Below are positions 1-19,142 of a stretch of DNA of 64,000 nt, piece after piece. Where the stretch lies: assembly GCA_015057705.1 (NCBI GenBank), contig SVDU01000006.1:62001-126000 (forward strand). Reading direction: 5' to 3'. Origin of the DNA: Paenibacillaceae bacterium (GTDB taxonomy: Bacteria; Bacillota; Clostridia; Lachnospirales; Lachnospiraceae). Within the stretch, counting starts at the first letter, position 1; the number at the start of each line of letters is the position of its first letter. A model generated the notes under the pieces. It worked only from the letters and a program-made list of their open reading frames with translations. It ran no database searches and had not been told where the DNA came from. The position numbers were made by a program, and so were the translations under genes.

Positions 1-660
1 CACCGAAGAATTGTTGTTATCGAGCCGATAATGATATAGCTGATGATCTGAAAAATAAACCTTTTTGGAAAGCAACGTTGCCAATACGGAAAATCCTGTA
101 TCCTGATAAGAAGCTCCCTGAGTCTCATTTAAATATAAATGGTTACTAATTAAAAAATCCTTTTGATAAAGTCCAGCCCATATACTGTATCCAACATAAT
201 ATCTGATTTCCGGTTCTTCCTGCACGTTTATAACACAATTATATCGGGATTGATTTGCTAAATGTTTAAATTCAGACTCAATCCTTCTTCCACCGATATC
301 AATAAACTTTTTGTAATCTGCTTTTATAAAATCCACCTGGTATTTCTCTGCCGTTTCATATAAGATCTGCAACATATCACTTCTGATATAATCGTCCGAT
401 TCCACAATTGCAATATAAGTTCCCTGAGCTAAGGAAATTCCCTTGTTAATCTTATAACCATAACTTGAATTACTGTCATACAAATAGTGAACTCGTCTAT
501 CATTTTCAGCATATGATCCAATAATATTTGAAGTTGCATCAGAACCACTATCAATACATATAATTTCAATTTCCTGCAATGTCTGATTAATTATACTATC
601 CATGCATTCTTTTATATATTTTTCAGAGTTATGTAATGGTAAAATAACGGTAATCTTCAT
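1..660 (-). CDS. Family 2 glycosyltransferase, C-terminus cut by window edge
   Basis: The frame is open from an ATG at 660 to the window edge (220 codons, no stop), so this is the N-terminal part of a longer protein. The start reads MKITVILPLHNSEKYIKEC, the classic first strand and helix of a GT-A family 2 enzyme. Further on are a CIDSGSDATS stretch (nucleotide-binding loop) and VESDDYI, the DxD-like metal and sugar-nucleotide site at about residue 100. It probably adds a sugar to a surface glycan at the cytoplasmic face. It is the last gene visible in the minus-strand glycan operon and starts 23 bases after the stop of the preceding glycosyltransferase. Donor and acceptor cannot be read from sequence. 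The family call is firm. Confidence 0.85.
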   Translation of the reverse strand, partial: MKITVILPLHNSEKYIKECMDSIINQTLQEIEIICIDSGSDATSNIIGSYAENDRRVHYLYDSNSSYGYKINKGISLAQGTYIAIVESDDYIRSDMLQILYETAEKYQVDFIKADYKKFIDIGGRRIESEFKHLANQSRYNCVINVQEEPEIRYYVGYSIWAGLYQKDFLISNHLYLNETQGASYQDTGFSVLATLLSKKVYFSDHQLYHYRLDNNNSSV

Positions 661-683
661 CTTTTTACTCCTCTAATTTAACT

Positions 684-1922
684 TTATTCCAAACATATTG
701 GTGATTTCCAGACTACCTTTTGCTCATTTATCCCCAATTCTTTAAGATTTTCTTTAATTTCTAAAACAGTTTTTTCATTTTTAACTGCTATTACTACATA
801 ATCAAACTCCATGTCTCTTAATATATCAGGTGATTGAATTATATGATCTTCGGTCATCAGATTTGTGTAATTTTGATCCACCCACCCATGTAATTTTGCA
901 TATCTGCTTTTTATCAGATTTTCTTCATATGATGCCCCAACATTTCCTCCACCGTATATTACTACACTGCTATCTTTTTCAATTAATTCAAACGGGAAAA
1001 GATACTTGGGTCTTTCTGGTAGAATATCAAATACACTTTTTATAGCCCAAAATAAAAATATTTTTGTATATGCTTTCACCTGTGTTTCCGTTTGGCTCCA
1101 AATACCAAACTCCAAAAACTTTTTCCTCATATAATGATAAAACTTATAAATCTTTTGAAAAGAGTCGATATTGTTATTCTGCGTCAAAGAATTAGAACGA
1201 GCTACATAATGATACCAACTTCTGTCAAGTATCATTATCTTTGTAGCTTTCGTAATAAATATATAAGTAATTGCAGCATCATCTCCCAAAACAATATTTT
1301 CGTCTAAATCAGCGCAAACTTTTTTCAACAATTCCACTTTATAAATTTTATTTGACATAGATGGAGTAATAGCCCTCTGTTTTGTTTGCATATCATACAT
1401 CATGCAAGGAATTATCTTATCATTTATATCCTCACACTCATATAATCCAGGAGGTATTTTATCAATCTCATAAATAACATTTTTGGGGGTTTCTATAGTG
1501 AGACCGGATGTAATCATATCCGGATTATATTCTGCATACGCAGCCATCATACAAAAATACATATCAGGCTCTATCCAGTCATCACTATCTACAAAAGTTA
1601 TCAATTTACCATAAGCCAATTGAACACCCAGATTTCTTGCTGCAACTGGTCCATTATTATTTATATGTATAACACGTATTCTATCGTCCTTATTTGAAAA
1701 TTCATCACAGAATTTCCCCGAATCATCTGTAGAACCATCATTAATTAAAATAATATCTAATTTATTATATTTCTGATAAATAATACTATTTATACATTTT
1801 TCCAGATACTGTGCAGTGTTATAAACAGGAACCACTACAGTCAATAATTCATTTATAAAAACATCTGTGTTGTACACTTTTTTAGTATTCCTCTCTTTAA
1901 ATAAATATATCACTAAAACCAC
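684..1922 (-). CDS. Family 2 glycosyltransferase with C-terminal Rossmann-like module
   Basis: The GT-A core begins with LTVVVPVYNTAQYLEKC, followed by LINDGSTDDSG and VDSDDWI (DxD-like site), so this is a family 2 inverting-type glycosyltransferase. From about residue 310 a separate domain starts with VVIYGGGNVG, a glycine-rich Rossmann-like turn also seen in three neighbouring proteins. The start is uncertain. The longest frame opens with a GTG at 1922 that overlaps the previous gene by 10 bases and puts about 25 unusual residues before the GT fold. A GTG at 1877 preceded by AGAGAGG is an alternative, though its spacing is long. Role: a sugar transfer step of the flagellin-adjacent glycan locus. 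The substrate is unknown. Confidence 0.8.
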   Translation of the reverse strand: MVLVIYLFKERNTKKVYNTDVFINELLTVVVPVYNTAQYLEKCINSIIYQKYNKLDIILINDGSTDDSGKFCDEFSNKDDRIRVIHINNNGPVAARNLGVQLAYGKLITFVDSDDWIEPDMYFCMMAAYAEYNPDMITSGLTIETPKNVIYEIDKIPPGLYECEDINDKIIPCMMYDMQTKQRAITPSMSNKIYKVELLKKVCADLDENIVLGDDAAITYIFITKATKIMILDRSWYHYVARSNSLTQNNNIDSFQKIYKFYHYMRKKFLEFGIWSQTETQVKAYTKIFLFWAIKSVFDILPERPKYLFPFELIEKDSSVVIYGGGNVGASYEENLIKSRYAKLHGWVDQNYTNLMTEDHIIQSPDILRDMEFDYVVIAVKNEKTVLEIKENLKELGINEQKVVWKSPICLE

Positions 1923-2845
1923 AATTCAGAGAATTCTAAACGTTTTGAAAAGCGCCTTCTGCACATTATTTCCACTTCTTTTGCATTTTCAACTCTTAAC
2001 TCTTTTGATTGATGGATTATTTTTAACAAAACATTATATAGTTTTTCTATATCATTCCTATTGACAATTGTCGATGAGATCGCTTCTGGAAACATTTTAT
2101 TTATAATTTCATACTCCTCATTTAGCAATAAATATCCATTTAACTCAAAAGCATATTTATGTAAATTCGAAAATTTTTCAGACCTCTCTTTTGATTGCAA
2201 ATTTTGTCTTCTTACTGTTTCATTATTTCCGGATTTTCTCCAATACAACAAATTTTCGCTTAAATTTGTAATCCTTCCGCGAGCCGAACATTGTATCCAA
2301 AAATGATAATCCTCCATTCCCAGCCAACCATCATGATAATTTATCCGATTTCTTTTTATAAAATCAGCCCTAAACATTGCACTTCCATTTGCAACAGAGT
2401 CATATAGCATCATATCAGCACGGATATATAATGGATTATTCAACGGTTCTCCACAAGTCCGTATTATCTGATCATTTTCATCTATAATACAATGCCGTCC
2501 TCCCACTACATCTATATCACTGTGTACATTTAGATAATTAACTTGAGTATCAAAGCGGAAAGGAACCGTTAAATCATCGTCATCCATTAAAGCAATATAC
2601 TCTCCACTTGCTAATGCCAATCCCCTATTTCTTGAAAATGAAATTCCCTCGTTTTTTTCATTTCTTACAATTTTTATTCTGGAATCCCTTATTTTACTAA
2701 CGATATCTAACGAATTATCTGTTGAACAGTCATCAACTATTAATAATTCAAAATCTTTATAGGATTGTTGCAAGATCGATTCAATTGCTTTACTTACAAA
2801 CTGTTCCGCATTATACAAAGGCATAATAACTGATATCTTTGGCAT
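1913..2845 (-). CDS. Family 2 glycosyltransferase
   Basis: This is a 310-residue GT-A family 2 enzyme. It starts MPKISVIMPLYNAEQFVSKA, has IVDDCSTDNSL at the nucleotide loop and ALMDDDDL at the metal site near residue 90. The GMEDYHFWIQC segment fits the acceptor-side acidic region (ED motif) common in bacterial polysaccharide glycosyltransferases. No membrane segment is evident, so it is presumably a cytoplasmic or peripheral membrane enzyme. It lies in the minus-strand glycan operon, 128 bases after the methyltransferase gene, and its 3' end overlaps the next annotated frame by 10 bases. Substrate unknown; fold and class are secure. Confidence 0.88.
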   Translation of the reverse strand: MPKISVIMPLYNAEQFVSKAIESILQQSYKDFELLIVDDCSTDNSLDIVSKIRDSRIKIVRNEKNEGISFSRNRGLALASGEYIALMDDDDLTVPFRFDTQVNYLNVHSDIDVVGGRHCIIDENDQIIRTCGEPLNNPLYIRADMMLYDSVANGSAMFRADFIKRNRINYHDGWLGMEDYHFWIQCSARGRITNLSENLLYWRKSGNNETVRRQNLQSKERSEKFSNLHKYAFELNGYLLLNEEYEIINKMFPEAISSTIVNRNDIEKLYNVLLKIIHQSKELRVENAKEVEIMCRRRFSKRLEFSELWF

Positions 2846-2973
2846 TATTACCTTATATGATGTTCATAGAAGTTTAACATCATATTTCCTCCTTATATAT
2901 ATTTAGTATTGTGATAACAAATCTTTATTAGATTATAACTGCTACAGATTTTACAAAAAAACAGATGTAATTA

Positions 2974-4179
2974 TTACTTCTTTTGCATCCAAAAACTCCC
3001 ACCTTGAATCGGAGCATGAATGGGCCAGTTTTCCATGAATATATCCCTATATTTTTTTTCCATCATATTTTGAAAATATATGGTTTTATAATTATCATTG
3101 TTCTGTAAAAACGCCCTCAATAAATATAATTCATTCCATACCCTGCCACTGTAAATCCACTCCTTTGGATATTCGAATGGATAAAAAATGTCATGCAAAT
3201 GAATGTAAACACCTTTTGCAAGTCTGGGAAATATATCAAAAAACAAATAATTGACATCTGATCCTATTTTAGATACATGTGTTGAGTCTATAAATAGAAC
3301 ATCTCCTTCTTCCAATTTCTCAAATGCATTGAATGAAACATCCTGCAATTTTTCTGGCAACAATTCAAGCTCATCCTGCGGCTTAACCAAAGATTTTAGT
3401 AAATCTGGATAAGGTTCAATAAATTTTAATTTAATTTGGTTATTCAAATAAAATTCATTCGTATCAAGCATGACTGCAGATGTATATCCTGAACCAACCT
3501 CAATAACCCTTTTAGGACGTAAAATTCGTAGCATGCAATGTAAACCAATTGCATCTGCATGACTTAGATTATTGTTATTATATTTATACCTTAATTTATT
3601 TGAATCTGTATATTCTGTAATATCTGTCCAATTGGGTATTGTGTCATACAAAAGTTGCATTTTATGTAGCGTCTTTATTTGATTCTCCTCATTAAAGTCT
3701 ATATCCCTTACATCTTTTTCTCGCAGAAATAATTGTTCTTCTTTATTTTTGATTTCTTCCAAGTCTGGATATAAAGAATAAAAATGACCAAGAGGCGAAA
3801 AGTTTTCTTTCTCTATATAACTATTCAGTCCCTCCCAATTAAATATAGTTCCTGTAATATTCGGAGGCATTATATAGGGAAAACCCTCCTTTTCTAATTT
3901 GTTTACAATATCCCAGCCATATTTTGGAGAAACCAGCATATAATATTTTCTTTTATCTTCCATAAGTTTCTCTAAGCCAACTACTGGAATTCCACAAATA
4001 ATTTCACTCTGTTTTATTATATCATTATCACAAAAGCAGCTAACTTTTAAGTTGTTTTTTTCAAGCTTATAAAATAAACGCTGCCCCCTTTGCCCTGCTC
4101 CAAAAATAACCCACACTTTTTCTAAATCCGAAGAATATTCATTGTTAAAATACGCATTAAGAATATTTTTTAATTCCAT
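2974..4179 (-). CDS. SAM-dependent methyltransferase with N-terminal Rossmann-like module
   Basis: Two domains are visible in 401 residues. The N-terminus (about 20-110) carries VWVIFGAGQRGQRL, the Rossmann-like module repeated in neighbouring proteins. The C-terminal half has a class I methyltransferase motif I, RVIEVGSGYTSAVML, near residue 220, then VLFIDSTHVSKIGSD and IHLHDIFYPF. The Asp and His residues there resemble the metal-dependent sugar O-methyltransferase type (Methyltransf_24, macrocin O-methyltransferase-like). It likely methylates a hydroxyl on a glycan sugar or side chain before or after assembly. It sits between two glycosyltransferase genes with AT-rich gaps of about 130 bases on each side. 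The exact acceptor is unknown. Class confidence is good, subtype is inference. Confidence 0.75.
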   Translation of the reverse strand: MELKNILNAYFNNEYSSDLEKVWVIFGAGQRGQRLFYKLEKNNLKVSCFCDNDIIKQSEIICGIPVVGLEKLMEDKRKYYMLVSPKYGWDIVNKLEKEGFPYIMPPNITGTIFNWEGLNSYIEKENFSPLGHFYSLYPDLEEIKNKEEQLFLREKDVRDIDFNEENQIKTLHKMQLLYDTIPNWTDITEYTDSNKLRYKYNNNNLSHADAIGLHCMLRILRPKRVIEVGSGYTSAVMLDTNEFYLNNQIKLKFIEPYPDLLKSLVKPQDELELLPEKLQDVSFNAFEKLEEGDVLFIDSTHVSKIGSDVNYLFFDIFPRLAKGVYIHLHDIFYPFEYPKEWIYSGRVWNELYLLRAFLQNNDNYKTIYFQNMMEKKYRDIFMENWPIHAPIQGGSFWMQKK

Positions 4180-4311
4180 ATTAATTATTTACAATGTATA
4201 AATATAATATAATACTCATACAATCCTCTCTAAATAGTATATAAAACAAACTATAATAACTAATAATTTTCAGAATTTATATAATATAATTTAATAGATT
4301 TTGCATTTCAA

Positions 4312-5697
4312 TCAAGCCATATGATCACATAAATATGTTTGAATAGTATCACCAAACTTATTCATAGAGAAATATCTCTCATATGTGTTTCTTGCATTTT
4401 TTCTTATATAATTAAGAGACTCTATATTTTGTATTATATAAGTCAACTTCAACAATAAATCCTCCAAATTACCCGCTTCATAGATAAACCCATTTTCATT
4501 ATTTTGGATAAATTCTGCAATCCCAGTATTCGTATTTGTTATGCATATTTTCTGATTCATCATTCCTTCTACTATAGCTATAGACATTGTCTCCTCTAAA
4601 GATGTGCATACTACTATATCTATTTGTTGGAATACTTTCTCTATTTCATTCCTAGACATCTCTCCCAAAATTTTTATCTGGTTAAAATCTTTTATTATAT
4701 CATTAACTTCTTCTCTATATTTTTTTCCCCCATCGCTTCCAATAATCCAACACTCTAGCTTATCCTTTACAGATAGAGGTAATTTTTTTAATGCATATAT
4801 TAGCTCTTTTTGATTTTTATTACTTGTGATCTTTCCTATTATTGATATAACTATCTTTTCATGGAATATATCGCCATTAACATAAAAATCCGGTAATCCG
4901 AAAGGTAATATTTCTACTTTTGGTTCTAAATAATATTTGGCAAAATTTGACCTAGCAATATCGCTAACTGCAAAAATCTTTACATTTGTAAATGCAGTGT
5001 CATCTATGAGATTCCCATATTGTTTTATGTACTCATTATAAGGTGTGCTATGCTCGTGCAACCACCAAAACACAGGTTTTCTTTTACTAATTCTATTTAC
5101 ACATAATATACTTTGAAGCGCGATAGCCATAACAAAGTCAAATTCTTGTATCCACTCAAGTTCTGCTTCCTCTATATATGGTATAGCTGTACATAACCAA
5201 ACATTTATTTTGTAACTATTAATTTCCAGAATTGTGTCTTCATTACCCGCTGGTGCTGATAATACAACATAATATCCTTTATCCTTTAATGCTATAGCAG
5301 CATATATTGCAGCTAAAGAACCTCCTGTATAATTTATAAATGGCAATATAATAAGTGCCCTTTTCTTACCTTGATCTTTCTCTGCTTCGTACTTAGTGAC
5401 AAGCCCATGAGTTTTACTACTAACAAATTCCTCCCAAAACATTATCTTTTCACTAGGTACTCCTAATAATATTAATTGATTTTTCATTTCTATAGGAGTA
5501 AGACTAGCTAAAATAATAACATCATAATTTAGTTCTGACACGGAATGGGGAGCATAAACAGATATATTTTCAATGTATTTTCCTTGTAGACTATTATTAT
5601 TATCTATAAAAGCAATTATATTTACTTCTTTTGGCAATGTATTCTTTCGTCTTTCATAAAATATTCCTGTTCCAAAAATAACTACATTTGAGTTCAT
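4312..5697 (-). CDS. Family 4 (GT-B) glycosyltransferase with N-terminal Rossmann-like module
   Basis: The first 90 residues (NVVIFGTGIFYERR and following) match the Rossmann-like module of the neighbouring methyltransferase and ParB-like protein. From about residue 110 the protein is a GT-B enzyme: LPFINYTGGSLAA is the N-terminal glycine-rich loop, ISIIGKITSNKNQ starts the C-terminal Rossmann domain, and EETMSIAIVEGM gives the E-x7-E motif of retaining family 4 enzymes. It probably transfers a sugar from a nucleotide donor in the cytoplasm during glycan assembly. The gene is preceded by a 219-base AT-rich gap, unlike the tight spacing further upstream. Donor and acceptor unknown. Confidence 0.82.
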   Translation of the reverse strand: MNSNVVIFGTGIFYERRKNTLPKEVNIIAFIDNNNSLQGKYIENISVYAPHSVSELNYDVIILASLTPIEMKNQLILLGVPSEKIMFWEEFVSSKTHGLVTKYEAEKDQGKKRALIILPFINYTGGSLAAIYAAIALKDKGYYVVLSAPAGNEDTILEINSYKINVWLCTAIPYIEEAELEWIQEFDFVMAIALQSILCVNRISKRKPVFWWLHEHSTPYNEYIKQYGNLIDDTAFTNVKIFAVSDIARSNFAKYYLEPKVEILPFGLPDFYVNGDIFHEKIVISIIGKITSNKNQKELIYALKKLPLSVKDKLECWIIGSDGGKKYREEVNDIIKDFNQIKILGEMSRNEIEKVFQQIDIVVCTSLEETMSIAIVEGMMNQKICITNTNTGIAEFIQNNENGFIYEAGNLEDLLLKLTYIIQNIESLNYIRKNARNTYERYFSMNKFGDTIQTYLCDHMA

Positions 5698-5916: not shown

Positions 5917-7503
5917 TTAGATTAATAGCTTTTCTATCCTATATGCTATCTCTCTATTTACTAACTCATTCAGATGAGATGGAACAGCACCATATTCATA
6001 ATCTTTATCAGTAATATAGTATTGACAGTCTAAGGTTTCAACGTCTAATGCAAAACTACAATTTGACATAAAAAAGCTATAATAATGTTTCAGCATTTTA
6101 TTTATCGATTTTATCATATTAATATTTTCATACATTTCACTATAAAATATATCACCCTTATATTCTGATAAATAATTTTTTACTAAAATAATCTTAATAC
6201 TTGGGTAATAAGCTTGTATTTTTTTAATAAAGTTAATACAGCTAACTTCCCATAATCTTTTACATTCGATACTGTCGCGATATATTATATGATTGTTATC
6301 GAAGTTAACTTTGCAATCTTTATAAGCATCGCTCATAGTTAAATAACCACCCTCTACCTGTATTAAATCAAAGCGTTCTTCGATAAAGTCCATAATAATA
6401 TATTGGGGATCTTCCTTTTTTAAATAATACCAAAAATCAGATTTTATATCCCTATTAACCATAATCTCACGATATTTATTATTAGATATAACGTTTTCCT
6501 TCTGACTTATGGGATTTACTATACTAATAAGACTTGAAAAATCAAATCTTAAAGATGGAATATGTAACATATTCATTAACCATGTAATACGGTTTAAGTT
6601 ATATCCACCTAACGTGATATATTTAATTTCATTGGATTCAGGAAACTGTTTTTTGATAAATGATCGGTAGTCATTTACCATACTAGCAAATTCTTTTTCT
6701 TGTTTCCTATGAAAAAAAGCCGCCAAAATATCTGATAGCTTATATTTTATAGTTCTTTCTAATTGAAATTTATATTTCTCATAAATTCCACATCTTCTAA
6801 ATCCATAAACTAATTCGGTAAAAGCCATTACTCCTATTGAATTATTATTTTCTAGGATATCTCTAGGTTTTTCTGACAAAGAATCTTTTCTAAATGTTCG
6901 ATAATAGTATAGAGGTTTTTTAACATTTACTATATTATTTGATAATGCAATCAGTAATGCATAAATAGCTCTTGCTGGACTATGACAGTTTGGAAAATAT
7001 ATATTATATCTTAAAAATATATCTCTACGAATTAAACATTTCCAAATAGCCGTATTACCATATATCATATGTTCTTCTTTTGAATATTCTTTTGCCATGC
7101 ATCCATAACTTGAACGATATGATTTTTGACCGTTAATATCATTATAACGGTATACATCACATTCCGCTATATCAGCATCATGCTTTTCTGCCTCAGTATA
7201 TAAATCAAGTAAAAAGTTCTTATCCAACCAATCATCTGAATCCAAAAAGGCCAAATATATTCCCTTAGCTTCCCTTATTCCCAAATTTCTGGTTGCAGAT
7301 AGGCCCTCATTCATCTTAGTAATATATCGAATTCGTCTGTCTTTATTTTTCCATTGAAGACATTTTCTTTCAGATCCATCAGTAGAGCCATCATTTATCA
7401 AAAGTATTTCATAATCATTAAAACTTTGGTTTAATAACGATTCCATACAAATATCCAGCCAGCTATATACATTATACACAGGTACAATTACACTAATCTT
7501 CAT
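5917..7503 (-). CDS. Family 2 glycosyltransferase fused to a DUF6270-like domain
   Basis: Residues 1-250 are a standard GT-A family 2 domain: MKISVIVPVYNVYSWLDIC, LINDGSTDGSERK, FLDSDDWLDKN. From about residue 290 a second domain begins, with a GGYNLNRITW start, RFDFSSLISIVNP, a YIIMDFIEERFDL core and an SHLNELVNREIA end. This layout resembles DUF6270, an SGNH-like domain of capsule loci. In that family the first block usually holds a serine nucleophile; here the matching place reads LGGYN, with no serine. The start codon overlaps the stop of the 272-residue upstream gene in an ATGA (7500-7503), implying translational coupling. The domain assignment is from memory of the family, so moderate confidence. 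Confidence 0.75.
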   Translation of the reverse strand: MKISVIVPVYNVYSWLDICMESLLNQSFNDYEILLINDGSTDGSERKCLQWKNKDRRIRYITKMNEGLSATRNLGIREAKGIYLAFLDSDDWLDKNFLLDLYTEAEKHDADIAECDVYRYNDINGQKSYRSSYGCMAKEYSKEEHMIYGNTAIWKCLIRRDIFLRYNIYFPNCHSPARAIYALLIALSNNIVNVKKPLYYYRTFRKDSLSEKPRDILENNNSIGVMAFTELVYGFRRCGIYEKYKFQLERTIKYKLSDILAAFFHRKQEKEFASMVNDYRSFIKKQFPESNEIKYITLGGYNLNRITWLMNMLHIPSLRFDFSSLISIVNPISQKENVISNNKYREIMVNRDIKSDFWYYLKKEDPQYIIMDFIEERFDLIQVEGGYLTMSDAYKDCKVNFDNNHIIYRDSIECKRLWEVSCINFIKKIQAYYPSIKIILVKNYLSEYKGDIFYSEMYENINMIKSINKMLKHYYSFFMSNCSFALDVETLDCQYYITDKDYEYGAVPSHLNELVNREIAYRIEKLLI

Positions 7504-8385: not shown

Positions 8386-9585
8386 TTAATTTAGATATTT
8401 AATAATATCCGCAACTCTTTCACTAGCATGCCCATCCTCCAGAACCCCATGCTCTTCCAAAAATCCATCAACTTTATTAATATATCCTTCAGAATCAAAC
8501 TTTACGATATTCTCAACCAGTTCATCATTATCCCTAGCTACTGTAAACGGTAAGGAATACATATCCCACATCAACTTCCCTCTTTCCTCTGTATACTGGT
8601 CTAAATCATCTGCATAAAGAAAAACAGGTAAATGCATATTAATAACATCAAACGCAGAGCTGGAATAGTCGGTTATCAATACATCTGAAGCTGCCGCCAG
8701 CTCATTCATATCATCCCCCTGACTAACATCTATCATGTTTGATATTCCGTTTGTTAAAGGAAACCCTTCCAATTGTGCAGCCAATTGAGGATGAAGGCGT
8801 AAAAATACAAACCAATTCCCACCAAACTTTTCCTCCAATGCATTCACCAGACGCTTAAAATCAATAGTAGGTTCATCTGCAAATACCTGCCGGTTACCTT
8901 TTTGGCTACCGCCTCTGAAAGTAGGTGCAAACATCACTATTTTTGCATCCTGAGGCATCTGATATCGCTCCCGTATGTACCTATAAATTTCTTCTCTTCC
9001 ATTAATAAAAATATCACATCGTGGTGAACCTGTTTTAATAATATTACCATGATAAAGTAACATTTCAGGATACAGTTTTGTACACCATTCAGAATTAGAA
9101 GTCACATAATCAACAAGATTAGAATCATATTCACTTACCAGATATGCAATTCTCGGAAATAGCTTTCCTCGAAATTTTCCCACTGGTTTAAACTCCAGCG
9201 CTGCATGCCAGGTCTGTATATAAAGCTGATTTTTCCTCTTAGCCGTACCATATGCCTTTCTGCTGTTATCCACCCATACTTTTGCGGTTGTCAGATGGTA
9301 GGCTCTATTTAGAAAGCTATTTTTAACCTTTTTAATTCCATCAGGAAACTGCTTTTCCATATTATTTACCAGCCAAACAATATCATACTTTTCTTTCCTG
9401 CTTAGAAGTTCTTCCGCAATGTAGCGGGGGTTGCAGCAAAACCCTCCGTCTCCTTCAAAAGTAGTGAATACTACCTTTCTTTTATTAACCGGTAAAATCC
9501 AAAGCAAACGGTAAAATAGATTCGTTCTGTAACATTGCCTTTTACGTTTTCTTATGTATTTTTCTTCATTGCTCATACCTTTCAT
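8386..9585 (-). CDS. CDP-glycerol phosphotransferase-family (TagB/TagF-like) protein
   Basis: The 399-residue protein matches the CDP-glycerol glycerophosphotransferase family (Pfam Glyphos_transf), which moves a polyol-phosphate from a CDP donor onto an acceptor by a phosphodiester bond. Visible family marks are RKVVFTTFEGDGG, YIQTWHAALEFK, APTFRGG, LRLHPQL and VLITDYSSSAFD. The start at 9585 is chosen because its ATG overlaps the TGA of the nucleotidyltransferase gene (ATGA) and follows GGAGG by 9 bases; a longer frame to 9639 would overlap that gene by 58 bases. It lacks a long N-terminal membrane anchor, so it may act on a soluble or peripheral acceptor. Polyol and acceptor are unknown. 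In C. difficile a protein of this family acts in flagellin modification. Confidence 0.85.
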   Translation of the reverse strand: MKGMSNEEKYIRKRKRQCYRTNLFYRLLWILPVNKRKVVFTTFEGDGGFCCNPRYIAEELLSRKEKYDIVWLVNNMEKQFPDGIKKVKNSFLNRAYHLTTAKVWVDNSRKAYGTAKRKNQLYIQTWHAALEFKPVGKFRGKLFPRIAYLVSEYDSNLVDYVTSNSEWCTKLYPEMLLYHGNIIKTGSPRCDIFINGREEIYRYIRERYQMPQDAKIVMFAPTFRGGSQKGNRQVFADEPTIDFKRLVNALEEKFGGNWFVFLRLHPQLAAQLEGFPLTNGISNMIDVSQGDDMNELAAASDVLITDYSSSAFDVINMHLPVFLYADDLDQYTEERGKLMWDMYSLPFTVARDNDELVENIVKFDSEGYINKVDGFLEEHGVLEDGHASERVADIIKYLN

Positions 9586-10325
9586 CTCTGAAATTCCTCC
9601 CTTGCAATCTGAACCAGCGAATCTGGAATTAAGGCACATGCTTTTTGATAATCTTCCTTAAAATCTACTTCACTCCAAAAATATCCTTTGGTAGATATAG
9701 ATTTCACTAGAAAGGTCTGTTTATCAATCACCCTTTGTACCGCTCCTTCAAAATAAGATGTAAAGGCCTTTTCTTTCATAAGCTCAACGGTTGCACTATT
9801 TAGTTCATTAATTACACATCTGCCAACTTTAGCAATACCAATAAATTCACCTTTGGACGTTTCACAATCCATTGTTTTATTTATCTCTACAACTTTACCG
9901 TCTGTTACTTTCACTTTCATCGCCTCTTCGTCGCAAGGACTGTAATCCACCGGCAATATAATGTCTCCCTCTTCCTGAAGCAAAGCTTTAAATATCTCAG
10001 GAGCGCACAAAGTATCTGCATGTAAATATACAAAGTCATCATGAAGTAAATCTTTCGCCATAAAGTATGATCCCAGTACATTTACCATCTCAAAAAACGG
10101 ATTGTAGACACATTTGATTCCATCTATCTTCTCCGTTAGTTCATCAAACCTTTCGCTCTGGTAACCTGTAACAATAATAATATCCCTAATTCCAAAAGCA
10201 TGGAGCATAGAAATATTATATTCAATCATCTTGAAACCTTTTATTTCCATAAATGATTTAGGTTTATTGTCTGTGAGATTTCCTAATCTGCTGCCTTTTC
10301 CTGCTGCCATAATGATTGCCTGCAT
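9582..10325 (-). CDS. LicC-like sugar/phospho-alcohol nucleotidyltransferase
   Basis: The 247-residue protein has the NTP-transferase fold. It starts MQAIIMAAGKGSRLGNLTDN (the GxGxRL nucleotide loop), continues with KPKSFMEIKG, then FVYLHADTLCAP (metal Asp). It ends with WSEVDFKEDYQ, an EVD motif like that in LicC-type phosphocholine cytidylyltransferases. It should couple CTP or another NTP to a phosphorylated alcohol or sugar to give an activated donor. It is the gene immediately before the CDP-glycerol phosphotransferase-family gene and overlaps it by four bases, so it probably makes that enzyme's donor. The length is normal for LicC-like enzymes. The actual phospho-substrate is not readable. 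Confidence 0.8.
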   Translation of the reverse strand: MQAIIMAAGKGSRLGNLTDNKPKSFMEIKGFKMIEYNISMLHAFGIRDIIIVTGYQSERFDELTEKIDGIKCVYNPFFEMVNVLGSYFMAKDLLHDDFVYLHADTLCAPEIFKALLQEEGDIILPVDYSPCDEEAMKVKVTDGKVVEINKTMDCETSKGEFIGIAKVGRCVINELNSATVELMKEKAFTSYFEGAVQRVIDKQTFLVKSISTKGYFWSEVDFKEDYQKACALIPDSLVQIAREEFQR

Positions 10326-10342: not shown

Positions 10343-11485
10343 CTAAATTGAATCGTAATAAATACTTGATATAATATTTTTTTGAAAGCTCAATTTGTCA
10401 TTGTTTACATTCCCCGTAACTTTTTCTGTAAGCTCTGGGATATCTTCGCTTTTAATTCCCAGGTTAAATAGAGTTTTAACGGTATTTGTCTTCTCCATAA
10501 ACCGGATCATTTCTATTCTTGCTTCTACACCGTTTTCTATTTTCCTGCCGATCAGCCAATATATAATATTCTTTACCTTATTTTCATTTACGCTGTATTG
10601 CCTTTGGATCCATGCAGGATACAAGGAGGCAACCCCCGCCCCATGACTTGTATCTGTCTTAGCACCAATCGCATACTGCATCCGATGAGGAAGGCATGTT
10701 CCCACGTTTGCAAGATTGATACCAACAATCATACTCGCATAACACATCGCTTCTCTTGCTTGATGATCATCAAGATTTTTCGCTAACAACAGAAGATTCT
10801 CTCCTATTGTTTTAATCGCTTTCTCAGAGATCATTTCGGACCAGTAATTAGATTTTACAGCTACATAGCTTTCTATCGCATGAGCCAACGCATCAAATCC
10901 CGTTTCCATTGTAATTCCAGAAGGTACTGTCCATGTATATACCGGATTAACGATTGCGGCTTTCGGTAATATTGCAGCGCCTCTTATTCCACCTTTCATT
11001 TGATAAGTCAGACTGGATAGTATTGCCCCCTTGCTCAATTCACTACCAGTACCTGCAGTCGTAGGAATAGCTATGACAGGCAACGTATGATCAGATGGTT
11101 CTATTCCCTCCAGTAAAAAACGTTCCAGCCTTTCAGTAGTACCAACTCCCACAGCTACGGCTTTTGCTGCATCGATAGCACTACCTCCGCCAAAGCCAAT
11201 AACTGCTTTCACCTGTCTGGATATACCTAACTGAACCGCCTCCTGAATCTCTTCTAATTTAGGATTTGCACTTATACTATCAAAAACCAAAGTATCTTCT
11301 ACATATGGAAGATTGTCCAGAATTCTTTTTAAGTCATTTACATAACCAAATCTTACAAGACTTCTTCCGGTTGTAACTACCATGATAGTTCCAGCCAGAT
11401 ATCTGCTTTCCTTCTTTAATGCCTCTTCTACATTATTATTGCCAAAATATATTGTTGTGGGTATTTCTAAAGTAAATCCTTCCAT
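10343..11485 (-). CDS. Iron-containing alcohol dehydrogenase
   Basis: This 380-residue protein is a group III (iron-type) alcohol dehydrogenase. Seen are IGFGGGSAIDAAKA (the GGGS NAD(P) site), IPTTAGTGSELSKGA, and GFDALAHAIESYV with the metal-binding His. A second His-bearing segment, LPHRMQYAIGAK followed by TSHGAG, completes the metal site. It would interconvert an aldehyde or ketone with an alcohol using NAD(P)H. Placed between a kinase and a nucleotidyltransferase, it likely reduces a phosphorylated aldose or ketose to a polyol-phosphate for CDP activation; this is inference. It begins 9 bases after the kinase stop. Distant relation to glycerol-1-phosphate dehydrogenases is possible. Confidence 0.82.
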   Translation of the reverse strand: MEGFTLEIPTTIYFGNNNVEEALKKESRYLAGTIMVVTTGRSLVRFGYVNDLKRILDNLPYVEDTLVFDSISANPKLEEIQEAVQLGISRQVKAVIGFGGGSAIDAAKAVAVGVGTTERLERFLLEGIEPSDHTLPVIAIPTTAGTGSELSKGAILSSLTYQMKGGIRGAAILPKAAIVNPVYTWTVPSGITMETGFDALAHAIESYVAVKSNYWSEMISEKAIKTIGENLLLLAKNLDDHQAREAMCYASMIVGINLANVGTCLPHRMQYAIGAKTDTSHGAGVASLYPAWIQRQYSVNENKVKNIIYWLIGRKIENGVEARIEMIRFMEKTNTVKTLFNLGIKSEDIPELTEKVTGNVNNDKLSFQKNIISSIYYDSI

Positions 11486-11494: not shown

Positions 11495-13027
11495 TCATAA
11501 ATTTTCAATTCTTACTTCTCTGTCATCAACCATTTTACTAATTATTCTTTTTCTTCTTTCATATAAATCTTTTACGGTCCCATAGGTATCTTTATATAGT
11601 TCATACATATACATGTACTTTTGATGATTAATCATGTTGGGCTTTATAATCATACGGACAGACACAAATTTATCAGCAGCTTCTCTCAAATCCTTAAAGC
11701 AACCTTTACCCAGCATAACCATCATAGCCGCTCCAGTTGATGTGGTCTCAAATTCGGATAAAACAAGAACGTCCCGCCCAAGAATATCCGCTTTTATCTG
11801 AGATATGAGATTAACTCTTGCCAGTCCGCCTGATAGACGAACCGAGTTTATTTTAATTCCCGTTTGCTCAATTGCAGCTATCATATCCATATCTATAAAT
11901 CCCGTACTTTCAAATACAGCTCGGGTCATGTCTTTTCTGGTATGCATTCTCTCTATACCAAAAAATACCCCCCGTGCATTATCATCCCAAATGGGCGCCC
12001 GCTCGCCTAAGAGGTATGGTAGGAATATCAAACCTTTTGCACCTAAAACAGATTCTCCTGCCTCCTTTTCCATCACCTCATAAGGATAAATTTCATTTTG
12101 ATAATAACACTGCTTTACCCACTCAATCAGTCCACCGCCCAGATTATTGCTGCCACCTATTATATTAGCGTTTTCCTTATAGAGCGGCAGATTATAGATC
12201 ATAGAGTTGTTATGTAGGTTTCTGTCTCTTGACAAGGCTCGTAATACAGTTACTGTTCCAGATACATCACTTGCTTCACCATCTTCAGATACCCCACTTC
12301 CAATGAAGGAACAAATCGCATCATAAGAGGTAACTACAATCTCCGTATTCTTACTGATTCCCAGTTTTTCCGCTAAAGCAGGGTTTATTCTGCCTACGGT
12401 ATCTCCAGGACTCATTACCCTTGGCAGACTCTGTTCAGAAACCCCTAGAGAATTTAAAAGGCTCACTGGATAATGATTTTTTTCTGGATTATAGTGATAC
12501 TTGATGGCATTAAAATAATCTGTGACATAGGTACCACTAAGTTTAAACAACATATAGTCATTGGGAGATAAAAACTTATCCGTCTTGCTAAACACTTCAG
12601 GCATATGCCTTTTTACCCACAATATTCGTGGAATCATAAGACTGGAAGTCATGTCTAATAAAGTTTCTCCATATACTTGCTTGAATTCATTTAGCTCAGA
12701 AATATACTTGCTCTCTTCTTCTGCTCTTTTATCTGAAACCATGAAAGCGCTCATAAGAGGAGACCCATCTTTATCTACGCAAACCAGACAAGAAGCAGAT
12801 GCTGTAACAGTTATATAATCAATACATATATCCTTGCATTCACAGGCTGCCCTTCCAATCAGTTGCTCCGCGCTCTGCCACCATTCCTTCGGATCCTGTT
12901 CAACTTTTTCTGCACTGATTGCTGTCTTTATGGGGATTGAGTCACTAAACAATTTCATCCCATCACCATTAAAAACAATGCACCTTATGCTCTTAAGCCC
13001 CATATTGATAACCATTACATTTTTCAT
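11495..13027 (-). CDS. FGGY-family carbohydrate kinase
   Basis: The 510-residue protein follows the FGGY sugar kinase plan. An N-terminal actin-like domain begins VMVINMGLKSIRCIVFNGDG, then VSDKRAEEES, LSPNDYMLFKLSG, a central SYDAICSFIGSG and DVSGTVTVL. The C-terminal domain has VRLSGGLARVNLISQIKADI, the FGGY-type ATP-site block. It is most like xylulokinase/gluconokinase members, but the substrate pocket cannot be assigned. It probably phosphorylates a polyol or ketose that feeds the glycan donor pathway. It starts 16 bases after the aldolase gene and runs into the dehydrogenase gene with 9 bases between. Confidence 0.8.
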   Translation of the reverse strand: MKNVMVINMGLKSIRCIVFNGDGMKLFSDSIPIKTAISAEKVEQDPKEWWQSAEQLIGRAACECKDICIDYITVTASASCLVCVDKDGSPLMSAFMVSDKRAEEESKYISELNEFKQVYGETLLDMTSSLMIPRILWVKRHMPEVFSKTDKFLSPNDYMLFKLSGTYVTDYFNAIKYHYNPEKNHYPVSLLNSLGVSEQSLPRVMSPGDTVGRINPALAEKLGISKNTEIVVTSYDAICSFIGSGVSEDGEASDVSGTVTVLRALSRDRNLHNNSMIYNLPLYKENANIIGGSNNLGGGLIEWVKQCYYQNEIYPYEVMEKEAGESVLGAKGLIFLPYLLGERAPIWDDNARGVFFGIERMHTRKDMTRAVFESTGFIDMDMIAAIEQTGIKINSVRLSGGLARVNLISQIKADILGRDVLVLSEFETTSTGAAMMVMLGKGCFKDLREAADKFVSVRMIIKPNMINHQKYMYMYELYKDTYGTVKDLYERRKRIISKMVDDREVRIENL

Positions 13028-13859: not shown

Positions 13860-14601
13860 CCCTTATCTCACTTCCTAAATCTGGTTTGTTAGTAATGATT
13901 CCATTAACGCCCCAATCACAAAATTTCCGCATGTCTTTTCCGCTGTTTACCGTCCAGATGTTAACCTCGAACCCCTTTTTCTTAAGTGATTCAACCGAAT
14001 CTATTTTATTCATATGATACCAAGCCGGATGTACAGTTGTTACGTTATATTTTTTTGCATACTCCGCGATATCCATATTGCCGTCACTATAAAGAAATGC
14101 TACCCTTGTCTTTGAGTCTATTTCACGAAGATTCAACATGGAGGAGTGAGAAAAAGAAGAAAATAAAGTCCTTTCAAATACATTTATATCTTTTACTATT
14201 TTTAATACCTTTTCTTCCATACCCTCATAAGAAATTATACTATTTTTCAATTCTATATTAAGCTGGAAATCATTACCTGACCTTGATATCTTTTTTGAAA
14301 AATAATCCAGCACTTCCTCCAAAAGAGGAATCTTAATACCACGGAATTCCGGGTGGGTTCTATTAAATTCAAATTGCCTGATGTCTTCCAGGAGAAAGTC
14401 TTTCACATATCCAGCCCCATCTGATACCCGGCTTATTTCCTCATCATGAACAACTACCAAATGTCCATCCTTCGTCATCTGCACGTCAAATTCAATCCCG
14501 TCTGCTCCCATATCATAAGCCAACTGGAATGCTTCCATAGAGTTCTCCGGTGCATACTGACTTGCTCCACGATGTCCATATATTTTCGTCTCGTATTTCA
14601 T
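13849..14601 (-). CDS. Glycerophosphodiester phosphodiesterase family protein
   Basis: The 250-residue protein is a GDPD-type TIM barrel. It begins with YGHRGASQYAPENSMEAF (catalytic HRG and the EN pair), then GIEFDVQMTKDG (metal Glu and Asp) and LVVVHDEE (second catalytic His). No signal peptide is present, so it acts in the cytoplasm. It could release glycerol-3-phosphate or another phospho-polyol from a phosphodiester, feeding the cytidylyltransferase domain encoded just upstream. Its ATG overlaps that gene's stop (ATGA, 14598-14601). Its length is normal for bacterial GDPD. The link to glycan donor supply is inferred from operon position only. Confidence 0.85.
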   Translation of the reverse strand: MKYETKIYGHRGASQYAPENSMEAFQLAYDMGADGIEFDVQMTKDGHLVVVHDEEISRVSDGAGYVKDFLLEDIRQFEFNRTHPEFRGIKIPLLEEVLDYFSKKISRSGNDFQLNIELKNSIISYEGMEEKVLKIVKDINVFERTLFSSFSHSSMLNLREIDSKTRVAFLYSDGNMDIAEYAKKYNVTTVHPAWYHMNKIDSVESLKKKGFEVNIWTVNSGKDMRKFCDWGVNGIITNKPDLGSEIRDDK

Positions 14602-15932
14602 TGTCTAGTCTCCAAAAATTTCTCCACAACCCCAGCCATAGCAATTGACTCTTCCTCTGTAAATTTATAAGATTTCCTTTCTCCGTTATGAATGAGTGAC
14701 ACAAATTCACTTAATTCATAACGCAGACCATCTCCCAAAAATTTTGCAGTATACTGTTCCTTTTTATAAGCATTCTCGAAACGGACTTCAAAAGATTTTG
14801 TCAGCCACCAGGGTGATTCTGCCAGTATATAGCCTTTGGTTCCTGCTATGATTAGCTGTCCTTCTGATTTTACAGCAACACCTGTCTTGGATAATGCCAT
14901 CCCCCTGTCAAAAGTAAAAGAAGCTTTCGTATATAAATCGACACCATTTTCATTTTTAATACTGTTAAATTTTACCTCTTTATACTGTGTTCCCAGTAAT
15001 TTAAAAATAGGAAGCATAGTGTGATTCCCGAATTCTAAAAATCCTCCCCCATAATTAGGATCCTTACATTCCCTTGATTCCAGATCTGCAATTCTGGTAA
15101 AACAAGCTTCCACATCTACAATATTTCCAATAATTCCACTTCTTGCAACCCCCAAAAGCTGATTAAATCCAGGGCAATAAGCAGTTTTAATAGCTTCCAT
15201 AAGCAGGCAGTCATTTGCTTTTGCAATCGCAAATAATTCAAGTGACTGTGCTTTTGATAAAGCCATAGGTTTTTCACACAGTACATGTTTCTTCAAACTT
15301 AGCGCTTTCTTTGCATATTCAAAATGTGTCTGGTGCAAAGAAGCGATATATACTGCATCCAATGGCTTTAGAAAGTCTTCATAATTTTCCCAATGCGCTT
15401 GAACACCAAATCGATCTGCAAACCGCTTTATACTTTCCTCATGAGGATTAAAAGCGCTGACTGTTTCAATCCCACTGACAAATTTTGCTTCAGGTACAAA
15501 TCTTCCTGCAATTCGTCCAGTTCCAACAATTCCTAATTTAATAATCGGATACTTTTGTTTTCTTAATAATGTACTTGAGATTTCTTTTGTTCTTTCCAAA
15601 TATACCACTTTGCAAAAATCTTTCAGGTAATCAAATTCCCCGGTCCAGTCTGAACCAATGGTAAATATATCCACACCATATTTATGAATATCTTCCACCT
15701 TCTGACCAACATGGTCTTCCACTATTATCTTATCTGCAAATCCGGTTTTTTTAACGTTTTCTATCCGGTCTATGATGGAATCCACTACATTTAATTTTCC
15801 ACGAGATTCATCATATTGTTCCGTTGTAATACCCACAATCAAATAGTCACCTAATGCTTTTGCTCTTTCAAGCAATTTATAATGTCCTTCATGAAATAAA
15901 TCAAAAGAACCATATGTTATTACTCTTGTCAT
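14598..15932 (-). CDS. Fusion: TagD-like cytidylyltransferase + Gfo/Idh/MocA oxidoreductase
   Basis: Two enzymes are joined in 444 residues. Residues 1-140 are a TagD-like cytidylyltransferase: GSFDLFHEGHYKLLERA contains the HxGH motif and ERTKEISSTLLR matches the second signature. Residues 145 onward start KLGIVGTGRIAGRF and have CEKPMALS, the EKP motif of Gfo/Idh/MocA NAD(P) oxidoreductases, plus GNHTMLPIF. The start at 15932 is preferred because GAGGAG lies about 10 bases upstream and the cytidylyltransferase begins at once; a longer frame to 15974 adds 14 unaligned residues. It is the first gene of the packed glycan operon. It may activate a phospho-polyol and oxidise or reduce the same or a related sugar. 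Substrates unknown. Confidence 0.82.
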   Translation of the reverse strand: MTRVITYGSFDLFHEGHYKLLERAKALGDYLIVGITTEQYDESRGKLNVVDSIIDRIENVKKTGFADKIIVEDHVGQKVEDIHKYGVDIFTIGSDWTGEFDYLKDFCKVVYLERTKEISSTLLRKQKYPIIKLGIVGTGRIAGRFVPEAKFVSGIETVSAFNPHEESIKRFADRFGVQAHWENYEDFLKPLDAVYIASLHQTHFEYAKKALSLKKHVLCEKPMALSKAQSLELFAIAKANDCLLMEAIKTAYCPGFNQLLGVARSGIIGNIVDVEACFTRIADLESRECKDPNYGGGFLEFGNHTMLPIFKLLGTQYKEVKFNSIKNENGVDLYTKASFTFDRGMALSKTGVAVKSEGQLIIAGTKGYILAESPWWLTKSFEVRFENAYKKEQYTAKFLGDGLRYELSEFVSLIHNGERKSYKFTEEESIAMAGVVEKFLETRQ

Positions 15933-16002
15933 ATATAAGTTCTCCTCATTTAAAAGATTATTTGATGCTCGCAATTACTTTAACTTTATTACTAAATTTT
16001 TA

Positions 16003-17587: not shown

Positions 17588-18874
17588 TTATTTTAACAGC
17601 TGTAATACACCCTGAGGAAGCTGATTTGCCTGAGCAAGCATAGCCTGAGAAGACTGAACAAGAATGTTATTCTTAGTATAGTTCATCATCTCTTTTGCCA
17701 TATCAACGTCACGGATACGGCTCTCTGCTGCGCTCATATTCTCGGTTGTTACACCTAAGTTATTGATTGTGTGCTCAAGACGATTCTGTAAAGCACCTAA
17801 ATTACCACGAGTAGAAGAAACTGTATTAATCGCGTCTTTGATCGTCTTAATAGCAGCTTTTGCACCGCTCTGTGTGCTGACATCAACGCTGTCAAGACCA
17901 AGTGCTTTGGAACTCATGGAGCCAACACTAACAGTGATGCTATTAAAGTCCTTGCCTGTATCACCTATCTGTAATGATAAACCGCTACCTACAGTAGTAC
18001 TAGGGCTAGTTCCCTTACCAGAAATTATAGGAGTAGCATTGCCCAATGCGCCAGCAAGACCATCGGCATCCTCTGTTTGTCCATTATTAACAGTTACTTC
18101 AATTCTACCAAGTCCTACGCTTGACAAATCAATGCTTGCTGTCTGTCCTGATTGTAAAGTACCAGATGCTAATGCAGTTCCTGCGCTAGTACCATTTGTA
18201 ATTGTTGTAACATCTTTTAAATCAATTACTGAAGTCTTAGCAGAACCATCCACATTATTTGTAACAGTTACTGTAATCTTTGACGAGTTAGCACCAGTAC
18301 CAACTTTAATGCCTACTGTCTGAGACTCGTCTACTGTAGTAGTGCTAGAATTATCAACAGAAAGAGAAGCACCTGAAGCTCTTGTAACTGTTGTATGTCC
18401 AATAGAGCTACCAATACCAACCATTTTCTGTGGTACACCAGTTGTCTTACCAAGGCTACCATCTAACAGGTTGATTCCGTTGAAGTTAGTACCTTCAGAA
18501 ATACGGTTGATTTCGCTCTTTAAAGAGTCAACTTCTTTTGTAAGGTTCTCACGGTCAACGTTATCCTGATATGTTCCGTTAGCGGACTGTGTAGCCAGCT
18601 CAACCATACGGTTTAACATGGAGTGAACTTCTGTTAAAGCACCTTCAGCTGTCTGAACTAAAGAAATACCATCGTTTGCGTTCTTGGAAGCTGTCTCAAG
18701 ACCTGTGATCTGTGCTCTCATCTTCTCAGAAATAGCAAGACCAGCTGCGTCGTCACCTGCGCGGTTGATTCTGTAACCGGAAGATAATTTCTCAAGGTTC
18801 TTAGATACGGATGTGTTGTTGCTTCCTAACTGTCTGTAAGAGTTTAATGCTGCGATATTGTGCTGAATTCTCAT
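17588..18874 (-). CDS. fliC: Flagellin
   Basis: The 428-residue protein is the flagellar filament subunit. The N-terminal D0/D1 region (about 1-140) starts MRIQHNIAALNSYRQL and has INRAGDDAAGLAISEKM. The C-terminal D1/D0 region ends with RIRDVDMAKEMMNYTKNNIL and QANQLPQGVLQLLK. Between about 145 and 340 lies a variable domain very rich in Ser and Thr, which offers many O-glycosylation sites. There is no signal peptide, as expected for type III flagellar export. The start has a strong AAGGAGGA site. A sigma-28-like promoter and a long folded leader lie upstream. A TPR glycosyltransferase and a glycan operon follow on the same strand, suggesting a modified flagellin. Confidence 0.97.
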   Translation of the reverse strand: MRIQHNIAALNSYRQLGSNNTSVSKNLEKLSSGYRINRAGDDAAGLAISEKMRAQITGLETASKNANDGISLVQTAEGALTEVHSMLNRMVELATQSANGTYQDNVDRENLTKEVDSLKSEINRISEGTNFNGINLLDGSLGKTTGVPQKMVGIGSSIGHTTVTRASGASLSVDNSSTTTVDESQTVGIKVGTGANSSKITVTVTNNVDGSAKTSVIDLKDVTTITNGTSAGTALASGTLQSGQTASIDLSSVGLGRIEVTVNNGQTEDADGLAGALGNATPIISGKGTSPSTTVGSGLSLQIGDTGKDFNSITVSVGSMSSKALGLDSVDVSTQSGAKAAIKTIKDAINTVSSTRGNLGALQNRLEHTINNLGVTTENMSAAESRIRDVDMAKEMMNYTKNNILVQSSQAMLAQANQLPQGVLQLLK

Positions 18875-19115
18875 GTGTTTTTTCCTCCTTGAATATGTAT
18901 CAGGGAAATCCTTTTCCCTGTATGATAAGACGCTTTCTGGTTTCCAGATAAGCGTTAAGATGTTTGAAACCTCAGCGGGGTACCAGCCGCTTAGCGGGTT
19001 TCATAAAAACTTGACACTTGTGTCTTTAAGAAGCCTGTCCAATGAATTGCTACCGCAAAATCAGGTTAAAACCGCTTTGCAAAAGTAATTCATCATCATC
19101 TTCCTTTCACATACT
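18875..19115 (-). promoter_or_regulatory. Structured flagellin 5' leader with CsrA-like hairpin
   Basis: The leader between the predicted promoter and the flagellin ATG is about 230 bases and can fold into successive stem-loops: 19049-19080, 19013-19024, 18966-19002 (GAAACC/GGTTTC arms), 18931-18954, and 18901-18920. The last has an 8-base stem CAGGGAAA/TTTCCCTG with AGGA in the loop, the GGA-in-loop form that CsrA recognises. The Shine-Dalgarno AAGGAGGA (18883-18890) gives a second GGA site. This matches the two-site layout known for the B. subtilis hag leader. No GEMM c-di-GMP riboswitch core was found. Confidence 0.5.
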
Positions 19116-19142
19116 TTATCGAGTCGGAGGCTTAAAAAGTTA
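19116..19142 (-). promoter_or_regulatory. Sigma-28 (SigD/FliA)-type promoter for flagellin
   Basis: On the minus strand TAAC (19139-19142) is followed by 15 bases and then CTCGATAA (19116-19123). This is close to the SigD consensus TAAA-N15-GCCGATAA, matching 3 of 4 and 6 of 8 positions. It lies upstream of flagellin, where such a promoter is expected. Transcription would start near 19108. Confidence 0.7.

Follow-up and report, generated by a model that had tools for sequence, protein, structure and literature searches.

Results

A glycan island within a flagellar gene cluster

The window, by which we mean the whole stretch of 64,000 nucleotides analysed, covers positions 62001-126000 of contig SVDU01000006.1 from a Lachnospiraceae bacterium (assembly GCA_015057705.1; G000:C1:62001-126000 in our survey). 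At its left end it holds a glycan gene island that runs on beyond the window and lies between the flagellin gene fliC and a set of flagellar genes. By open reading frame (ORF) reading and Pfam, fliC is followed by a glycosyltransferase (GT) gene, then by 18 genes on the same minus strand, and then by the flagellar genes. The gap from fliC to this GT2 gene is 88 bp, and a further 202 bp lead to a run of 14 genes that starts at 15974 and reaches the left edge of the window. Within the seven-gene core (15974-8386) intergenic distances are -11 to +17 bp. Coordinates are window positions unless prefixed with a locus number, and lengths are in amino acids (aa):

17588..18874 (-): FliC flagellin, 428 aa, proposed acceptor; PF00669/PF00700
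16177..17499 (-): GT2 with a long C-terminal part, the fliC-side GT, proposed flagellin O-glycosyltransferase; PF00535, SunS peptide-glycosyltransferase model below cut-off
14598..15974 (-): TagD-type cytidylyltransferase fused to a Gfo/Idh/MocA oxidoreductase (TagD-GFO); PF01467 and PF01408
13849..14601 (-): GDPD-family phosphodiesterase; PF03009
13044..13859 (-): class II ketose-(bis)phosphate aldolase family (FBA); PF01116, nearest solved proteins including the tagatose-bisphosphate aldolases KbaY/AgaY
11495..13027 (-): FGGY carbohydrate kinase; PF00370/PF02782, XylB model TIGR01312 nearest at 253 of 380 bits (under cut-off)
10343..11485 (-): iron-type alcohol dehydrogenase (Fe-ADH); PF00465/PF25137, no NCBIfam cut-off reached
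9582..10325 (-): LicC/PntC-type NTP transferase (NTPT), proposed CDP-alcohol synthase; PF00483/PF12804
8386..9585 (-): TagF-family phosphotransferase (GLYPHOS); PF04464, 237 bits
7500..8318 (-): 272-aa protein (u272) with an N-terminal Rossmann-like module, by profile; no Pfam or NCBIfam match
5917..7503 (-): GT2 fused to DUF6270; Pfam
4312..5697 (-): GT4-type glycosyltransferase with an N-terminal Rossmann-like module; Pfam and module profile
2974..4179 (-): methyltransferase (Methyltransf_24) with an N-terminal Rossmann-like module; Pfam and module profile
1913..2845 (-): GT2 glycosyltransferase; Pfam
684..1922 (-): GT2 glycosyltransferase with a C-terminal Rossmann-like module; Pfam and module profile
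1..660 (-): first part of a GT2 gene (455 aa) whose remainder lies left of the window; ORF reading
L007:726-3266, left of the window: GTB846, 846 aa
L006:16464-18713, left of the window: 749-aa protein with a C-terminal cytidylyltransferase domain and a weak methyltransferase match
L006:15173-16435, left of the window: xylose-isomerase-like TIM barrel 1
L006:14233-15255, left of the window: xylose-isomerase-like TIM barrel 2

The part left of the window, about 8 kb, brings the island to three cytidylyltransferase-type proteins and two TagF-superfamily enzymes (GLYPHOS and GTB846). Left of the TIM barrels comes a 135-aa ORF, and after it flagellar genes, which Pfam identifies as FliF, FliG, the export ATPase, an FlgE-type protein, MotA, FliP, FlhA, FliD and FliS; L006:12343-12723, without a Pfam match at 1e-5, was read as FlgB by eye. 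Among the island proteins no exporter, polymerase or initiating-transferase family is matched by Pfam (1e-3), and u272, GTB846 and the 135-aa ORF have no Pfam match at that threshold.

An initial annotation of the window had described flagellin, a GT and a 14-gene glycan run on one strand, and ORFs and Pfam families agree. The run's CDP-glycerol phosphotransferase-family enzyme, aldolase, kinase, Fe-ADH, phosphodiesterase, methyltransferase and five GTs (four GT2 and a GT4-type; the window edge truncates one of the five) were all recovered. Its two unlike nucleotidyltransferases are of the TagD and LicC/PntC types, the former being the fusion with an oxidoreductase. The product of 16177-17499, described as a TPR protein glycosyltransferase, keeps its GT2 domain, whereas the TPR part is not called by Pfam. 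The annotation had also seen no flippase, polymerase or chain-length gene, and the absence of such family matches extends through the 8 kb further left; capsule export genes, which it had allowed for just beyond the window, were searched for there, and flagellar genes were found instead.

A TagF-like family that tracks flagellin

The most useful new fact to come from this locus is a TagF-like family, that of GTB846, which tracks flagellin; the remainder follows a known type of system. GTB846 is predicted to have a TagF-like GT-B fold with an inserted beta-propeller. Its relatives align with the Glyphos_transf (TagF) profile at an hhalign E of 7e-9, TagF motif regions included, and one of them (L173:7011-8327) reaches 23.5 bits against Glyphos_transf, where the cut-off is 22.1. 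The Foldseek list for the whole model consists mostly of beta-propellers and says little on the GT-B part.

We surveyed 150 genomes, one for each genus label and our own counted in, of a family taken as Lachnospiraceae from its named loci. Presence was scored at E-value limits of 1e-8 (LicD), 1e-20 (PF04464), 1e-15 (GTB846), 1e-20 (fliC-side GT) and 1e-3 (flagellin), and the chance values given (p, expected) ignore phylogeny. Flagellin is present in 82 of the 150. Relatives of GTB846 occur in 27 genomes, every one of which has flagellin (p 8e-9), and relatives of the fliC-side GT in 38, of which 33 have it (p 2e-6). GTB846 and the fliC-side GT thus track flagellin across genera. Neither LicD (50 of 93 genomes with flagellin, p 0.67) nor PF04464 (40 of 71, p 0.41) does so.

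Physical distance follows the same line for GTB846. A relative lies within 20 kb of a listed flagellin in at least 15 of the 27 genomes, our own among them, against 0.67 expected and with a flagellin position listed for 24 of the 27. For the other families, distances cover 70 of the 82 flagellin genomes and the matches listed only, with one flagellin position (G031) taken from a separate search. On this footing 21 of 79 LicD matches lie within 20 kb of flagellin (1.94 expected), 7 of 79 PF04464 matches do (1.99 expected; within 10 kb, 2 against 1.10), and none of 45 Gfo/Idh-only control matches does (0.74 expected), the control rows being hand-picked rather than blind: G139:C11 was missed and G139:C14 omitted as akin to TagD-GFO. 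The omitted row, scoring 245 bits, is a Gfo/Idh-GDPD fusion at a distance of about 18.6 kb from flagellin. Its surroundings (L053, G139:C14:144000-163999) hold, some 11-20 kb from flagellin, this fusion, an Fe-ADH relative and a fusion of NTP transferase with cytidylyltransferase, another donor combination.

Six genomes carry a LicD-GTB fusion of 697-777 aa at 0.2 to 17 kb from flagellin (as named, G042 with two, G131, G086, G116, G112 and G041; Pfam LicD was confirmed on two). Because relatives of GTB846 are here joined to a second family of phosphotransferases, the fusions support phosphate transfer as the likely shared theme. Individual loci vary around this theme. One genome (G038) has the order fliC, GT (41%), GTB846 (30%) and stand-alone TagD (41%); another (G022) has fliC, GT, GTB846, TagD-GFO, LicD, GLYPHOS (45%), IspD and SDR. 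IspD and SDR are the make-up of CDP-ribitol synthesis. In G119 a GTB relative directly adjoins fliC. In G077 fliC and a GT face, on the opposite strand, an NTP-transferase/aminotransferase fusion, one further gene and a GTB relative. This fusion (L164:14956-16794), with a class I aminotransferase, is laid out like PntC 6pd1, which joins an NTP transferase to a class V aminotransferase, and is possibly an amino-alcohol donor enzyme. Six flagellin-linked loci pooled (68 proteins) gave 9 LicD, 5 CTP_transf_like, 3 IspD, 3 GDPD and 2 Glyphos_transf matches; such pooled Pfam scans give the best 25 of 49-81 families.

Six other genomes have long homologues (>220 bits) of the fliC-side GT. The distance to fliC is 0.5-2 kb in four of them (G038, G107, G016, G077) and 14 kb in G119; the flagellin position in G111 is unlisted. 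In G104 (C1:3084535-3099667, partly L142) at least five flagellin genes lie within 10 kb beside two relatives of this GT and a LicC-like NTP transferase. Serine plus threonine make up 30.5% of residues 142-341 of our FliC and 17.0% and 14.9% of the parts on either side. Around the second flagellin of the same genome (G000:C33), reading of the ORFs in 20 kb revealed no comparable island.

Core enzymes and the proposed donor branch

GLYPHOS aligns with solved TagF 3l7i over 363 residues (E 3.6e-35) and keeps the TWH, LRxH and TDYSS stretches, whose two histidines we take to be catalytic. Its start at 9585 is better than that at 9639 (4-base overlap with the preceding gene). The TagD domain of TagD-GFO keeps the HxGH and RTxxIS stretches of solved glycerol-3-phosphate cytidylyltransferases (2b7l, 1coz), and its fusion to a reductase-type domain presumably follows the same logic as the bifunctional CDP-ribitol synthases found in capsule loci. 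Despite this likeness to TagD and TagF, the island differs from teichoic-acid loci: it has no match to an initiating-transferase or exporter family, it is located with flagellin, and its TagD is fused to Gfo/Idh. The aldolase, FGGY kinase and Fe-ADH are matched at family level, and none reaches an NCBIfam cut-off.

The closest solved proteins to NTPT are LicC 1jyk, the best, and PntC 6pd1, enzymes for phosphocholine and aminoethylphosphonate. Its relatives at 1e-25 occur in 5 other genomes of the 150, and in at least two of these (G131, G104) lie within 8 kb of a listed flagellin. The alcohol handled here may be a polyol; a small amino-alcohol would also be compatible, since these nearest relatives serve such compounds. 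PntC, as the second-best solved relative of NTPT, also raises the thought that the glycan carries a phosphonate, with NTPT as PntC and Fe-ADH, which has a sub-cut-off match to a phosphonate Fe-ADH model, as phosphonoacetaldehyde reductase. The motif of phosphoenolpyruvate (PEP) mutase is EDKxxxxxNS (PMC6697681), and by eye it is absent from both PF13714 proteins found in the genome; the island itself has no PF13714 match. We rejected the phosphonate reading on this motif and consider it highly improbable.

The cassette outside flagellin loci

Several observations weigh against a strict flagellin role and are taken together here. In another genome (G152, locus L057) the same genes stand in the same order: TagD-GFO, a GDPD fusion, FBA (48%), FGGY (58%), Fe-ADH (47%), NTPT (60%) and GLYPHOS (53%). 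The surrounding 60 kb or so (42 proteins scanned) include Bac_transf, WbqC, GtrII and many GTs, as in a polysaccharide-type region; an initiating sugar transferase family is present in the cassette region (L057/L146/L147), and the contig has no flagellin. Because the same set recurs in the same order in such a setting, the cassette is a movable, portable unit, and its presence alone is no proof of a flagellin target. The pairing of TagD-GFO with GTB846 is not fixed either: all 5 relatives of the first draw have a GTB846 relative close to TagD-GFO, against 5 of the 17 named loci. The closest models and solved relatives of GLYPHOS, moreover, are teichoic-acid or capsule enzymes.

These points would suit a cassette whose product is a wall or capsule polymer containing phospho-alcohol repeats, with GLYPHOS as its polymerase and a place beside fliC owed to chance or hot-spot integration. 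Such a polymer would need GLYPHOS, since no other PF04464 protein of the genome is found at E 1e-20 among the matches listed. Nevertheless, we think this explanation unlikely. The island shows no family match for an initiating transferase, flippase, ABC exporter or polymerase, the hallmarks of wall teichoic acid and capsule loci; flagellar genes lie directly to its left; and relatives of GTB846 and of the fliC-side GT are co-inherited with flagellin.

TagD-GFO itself was considered as a flagellin-specific fusion and rejected as such. The clade to which the island's copy belongs has 25 copies in 23 genomes, 22 of them with flagellin, and 10 of the 25 copies lie within 27 kb of flagellin on their contig. 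The tree holds 24 of the 25, the second copy of G157 being placed by identity (60%). One named genome, Butyrivibrio sp. CB08 (locus L067), carries TagD-GFO together with relatives of both TIM barrels. A second clade, separated with full support, comprises 8 two-domain copies, and the 8 genomes that carry them lack flagellin; two other genomes, which carry Gfo/Idh-GDPD fusions, possess flagellin. Within the first clade linkage to flagellin changes 7 times on the tree, at least 5 changes being forced by supported branches; clustering is not significant (48 of 500 shuffles as low), gains and losses are not separable, and some copies may be scored as unlinked in error because their contigs are short. 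Our genome has a second TagD-Gfo/Idh fusion (G000:C23:5864-7204, L039; 59%), nearest in the tree to a copy from Clostridium sp. chh4-2, on a 7.4-kb contig that also bears phosphoglucomutase-family and ManC-like nucleotidyltransferase genes.

A shared module and other features

Seven island proteins of differing catalytic type share a Rossmann-like VIFGAG module of about 90 residues (684-1922, 2974-4179, 4312-5697, 7500-8318, L007:3293-4660, L006:15173-16435 and L006:16464-18713). The profile was built from the island proteins, so that leave-one-out scoring (E 4e-6 to 1e-19) is the fair test. Among 129 ORFs of the window, the flagellar operon and the second flagellin region, matches are restricted to island proteins. 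The module recurs in seven or eight ORFs each of L151, L149 and L147, and in 0 of 123 ORFs of loci of the second TagD-GFO clade. Its role may be to bind a partner or nucleotide common to these proteins. As a flagellin feature it was rejected, since it occurs in 23 of 183 ORFs of flagellin-linked loci and in 38 of 398 of other loci.

The GC content of the window rises from 0.28-0.31 in 1-8000 to 0.36-0.38 between 8 and 16 kb and to 0.38-0.46 beyond 18 kb, and the GT-rich half of the island may have a separate origin. At 19214-21109 (+), divergent from fliC, lies a gene for a 631-aa GT2 protein with weak relatives in some flagellin-linked loci. Scans for promoters and terminators gave no excess over shuffles (91 against 95.9 and 5 against 8.0, respectively). 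Plasmid relatives of the core amount to 8 records with short matches, which among those listed are 66.7-76.1% pieces of at most 5% of the query.

Discussion

The island has the general form of a flagellin glycosylation island, with glycan genes inserted in a flagellar cluster next to flagellin. Its closest parallels are the Type A system of Clostridium difficile 630 (CD0240-CD0244, PMC10714395) and the b-type system of Pseudomonas aeruginosa PAO1 (PA1088-PA1091, PMC11833859), for which the available text models a CDP-activated (methylated) threonine and a TagF-like transferase, GT and phosphotransferase being fused in PA1091. Shared with these are a GT beside flagellin, a LicC-like NTP transferase and a TagF-like phosphotransferase; there, the product is a phosphodiester-linked group on a core sugar. 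The likeness to C. difficile 630 drawn in the initial annotation is borne out by GLYPHOS and NTPT, which adjoin one another as in Type A. As in Type A, the GT gene lies directly downstream of fliC. NTPT is of the CD0242 type and GLYPHOS of the CD0244 type, as judged by LicC as the best solved match and by PF04464/TagF, respectively. A methyltransferase is present (2974-4179); CD0243 is an N-methyltransferase of threonine.

On a Type A-like reading, the activated group would be an amino-acid or amino-alcohol phosphate, CDP-threonine-like, rather than a polyol. The pair of LicC-like and TagF-like enzymes is that of CD0242 and CD0244 in the available account (PMC10714395), NTPT is nearest to LicC and PntC, and the NTP-transferase/aminotransferase fusion of G077 lies one gene from fliC on the opposite strand. 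Still, we judge this improbable. No HAD family, the type of the phosphoserine-phosphatase/ThrH-like enzyme CD0241, is matched among the island proteins at 1e-3 (three of which lack any Pfam match); the presence of a kinase, an aldolase and Fe-ADH suggests that a carbon skeleton is being built; and the GLYPHOS of G022, 45-47% identical to ours, stands with IspD and SDR, which we take to be a CDP-ribitol-type pair. Compared with Type A and b-type systems the island adds an aldolase, FGGY kinase, Fe-ADH, GDPD and TagD-Gfo/Idh, and has two transferases, three cytidylyltransferase-type proteins and six GTs including the fliC-side one. Judged by gene content, its moiety is probably not threonine. 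It looks as if the island works like these systems but is not a member of them, because it lacks a ThrH-like HAD match and adds a carbon-skeleton branch.

Other comparisons place it further. Variable glycan islands lie beside flagellin in Geobacillus (PMC5109656), one strain of which has tagD plus pgs, and in Clostridium (PMC13317340); in the text available, their sugars are nonulosonic acids, rhamnose, mannose, Fuc4N, glucose and paratose-like ones, with no CDP-alcohol/TagF pair. The accessible main text of the 2026 Clostridium survey (PMC13317340) has no word beginning with 'phospho', and counts only seven Gram-positive genera, Butyrivibrio included, in which flagellar O-glycosylation has been described. 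In the accessible open-licence literature we recognised no account of CDP-alcohol or LicD-linked flagellin glycans in Lachnospiraceae, nor does the available text of PMC12355684 contain one; in that open literature LicD, flagellin and glycosylation co-occur in a single paper, on Campylobacter genomes.

The FKTN and FKRP phosphotransferases of alpha-dystroglycan belong to the LicD family. With ISPD they form its phospho-ribitol machinery, in which a CDP-polyol synthase and a phosphotransferase act on a protein-bound glycan (PMC4873967). The flagellin locus of G022, with IspD, SDR and LicD, resembles it. Our island is bacterial and has TagF-superfamily enzymes in place of LicD, the genome's one LicD among the matches listed being on contig C2.

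From position and co-inheritance, we infer flagellin as the target. We propose a model, at a probability of about 0.7, where the island adds phosphodiester-linked alcohols to a flagellin glycan by the logic of C. difficile Type A with another donor branch. The fliC-side GT would place the first sugar on serine or threonine of FliC in the cytoplasm, and the remaining GTs would extend the glycan. A first pair, NTPT and GLYPHOS, would draw its alcohol phosphate from the aldolase, Fe-ADH and FGGY kinase. In the most economical order, which would use each of these enzymes once, the aldolase yields an aldehyde, Fe-ADH an alcohol, the kinase an alcohol phosphate and NTPT a CDP-alcohol, from which GLYPHOS would transfer the alcohol-phosphate. 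TagD-Gfo/Idh could reduce a keto intermediate and CDP-activate the product, forming a second pair with GTB846; the TIM barrels and third cytidylyltransferase might feed this pair or a further donor, and GDPD might serve as a source of glycerophosphate or recycle it. Once complete, the glycoprotein would exit through the flagellar export apparatus. The flagellin-linked phospho-polyol interpretation given initially is kept in part: position, the lack of export-gene matches to the left and the tracking of flagellin by GTB846 and the fliC-side GT speak for it, and the cassette's occurrence apart from flagellin against it. The island is real and well placed, and phospho-alcohol decoration of flagellin is its most likely role.

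It is tempting to go further, and we see even odds that flagellated Lachnospiraceae share a dedicated TagF-superfamily branch, the GTB846 relatives in plain, beta-propeller-inserted and LicD-fused forms, which would decorate flagellin glycans with phospho-alcohols from exchangeable donor cassettes (TagD-Gfo/Idh; NTPT with aldolase, kinase and Fe-ADH; IspD with SDR). Bacteria would then have, across a whole family, a counterpart of the dystroglycan phospho-ribitol machinery, with our island as an elaborate version. Lachnospiraceae flagellins are major antigens of the gut and ligands of TLR5. If phosphate-linked alcohols are family-wide, filament charge, immune recognition and phage attachment could change, and new CDP-alcohol enzymes and phosphotransferases would come with them. 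GTB846 provides a marker that makes the question of flagellin phospho-alcohols testable in cultured commensals.

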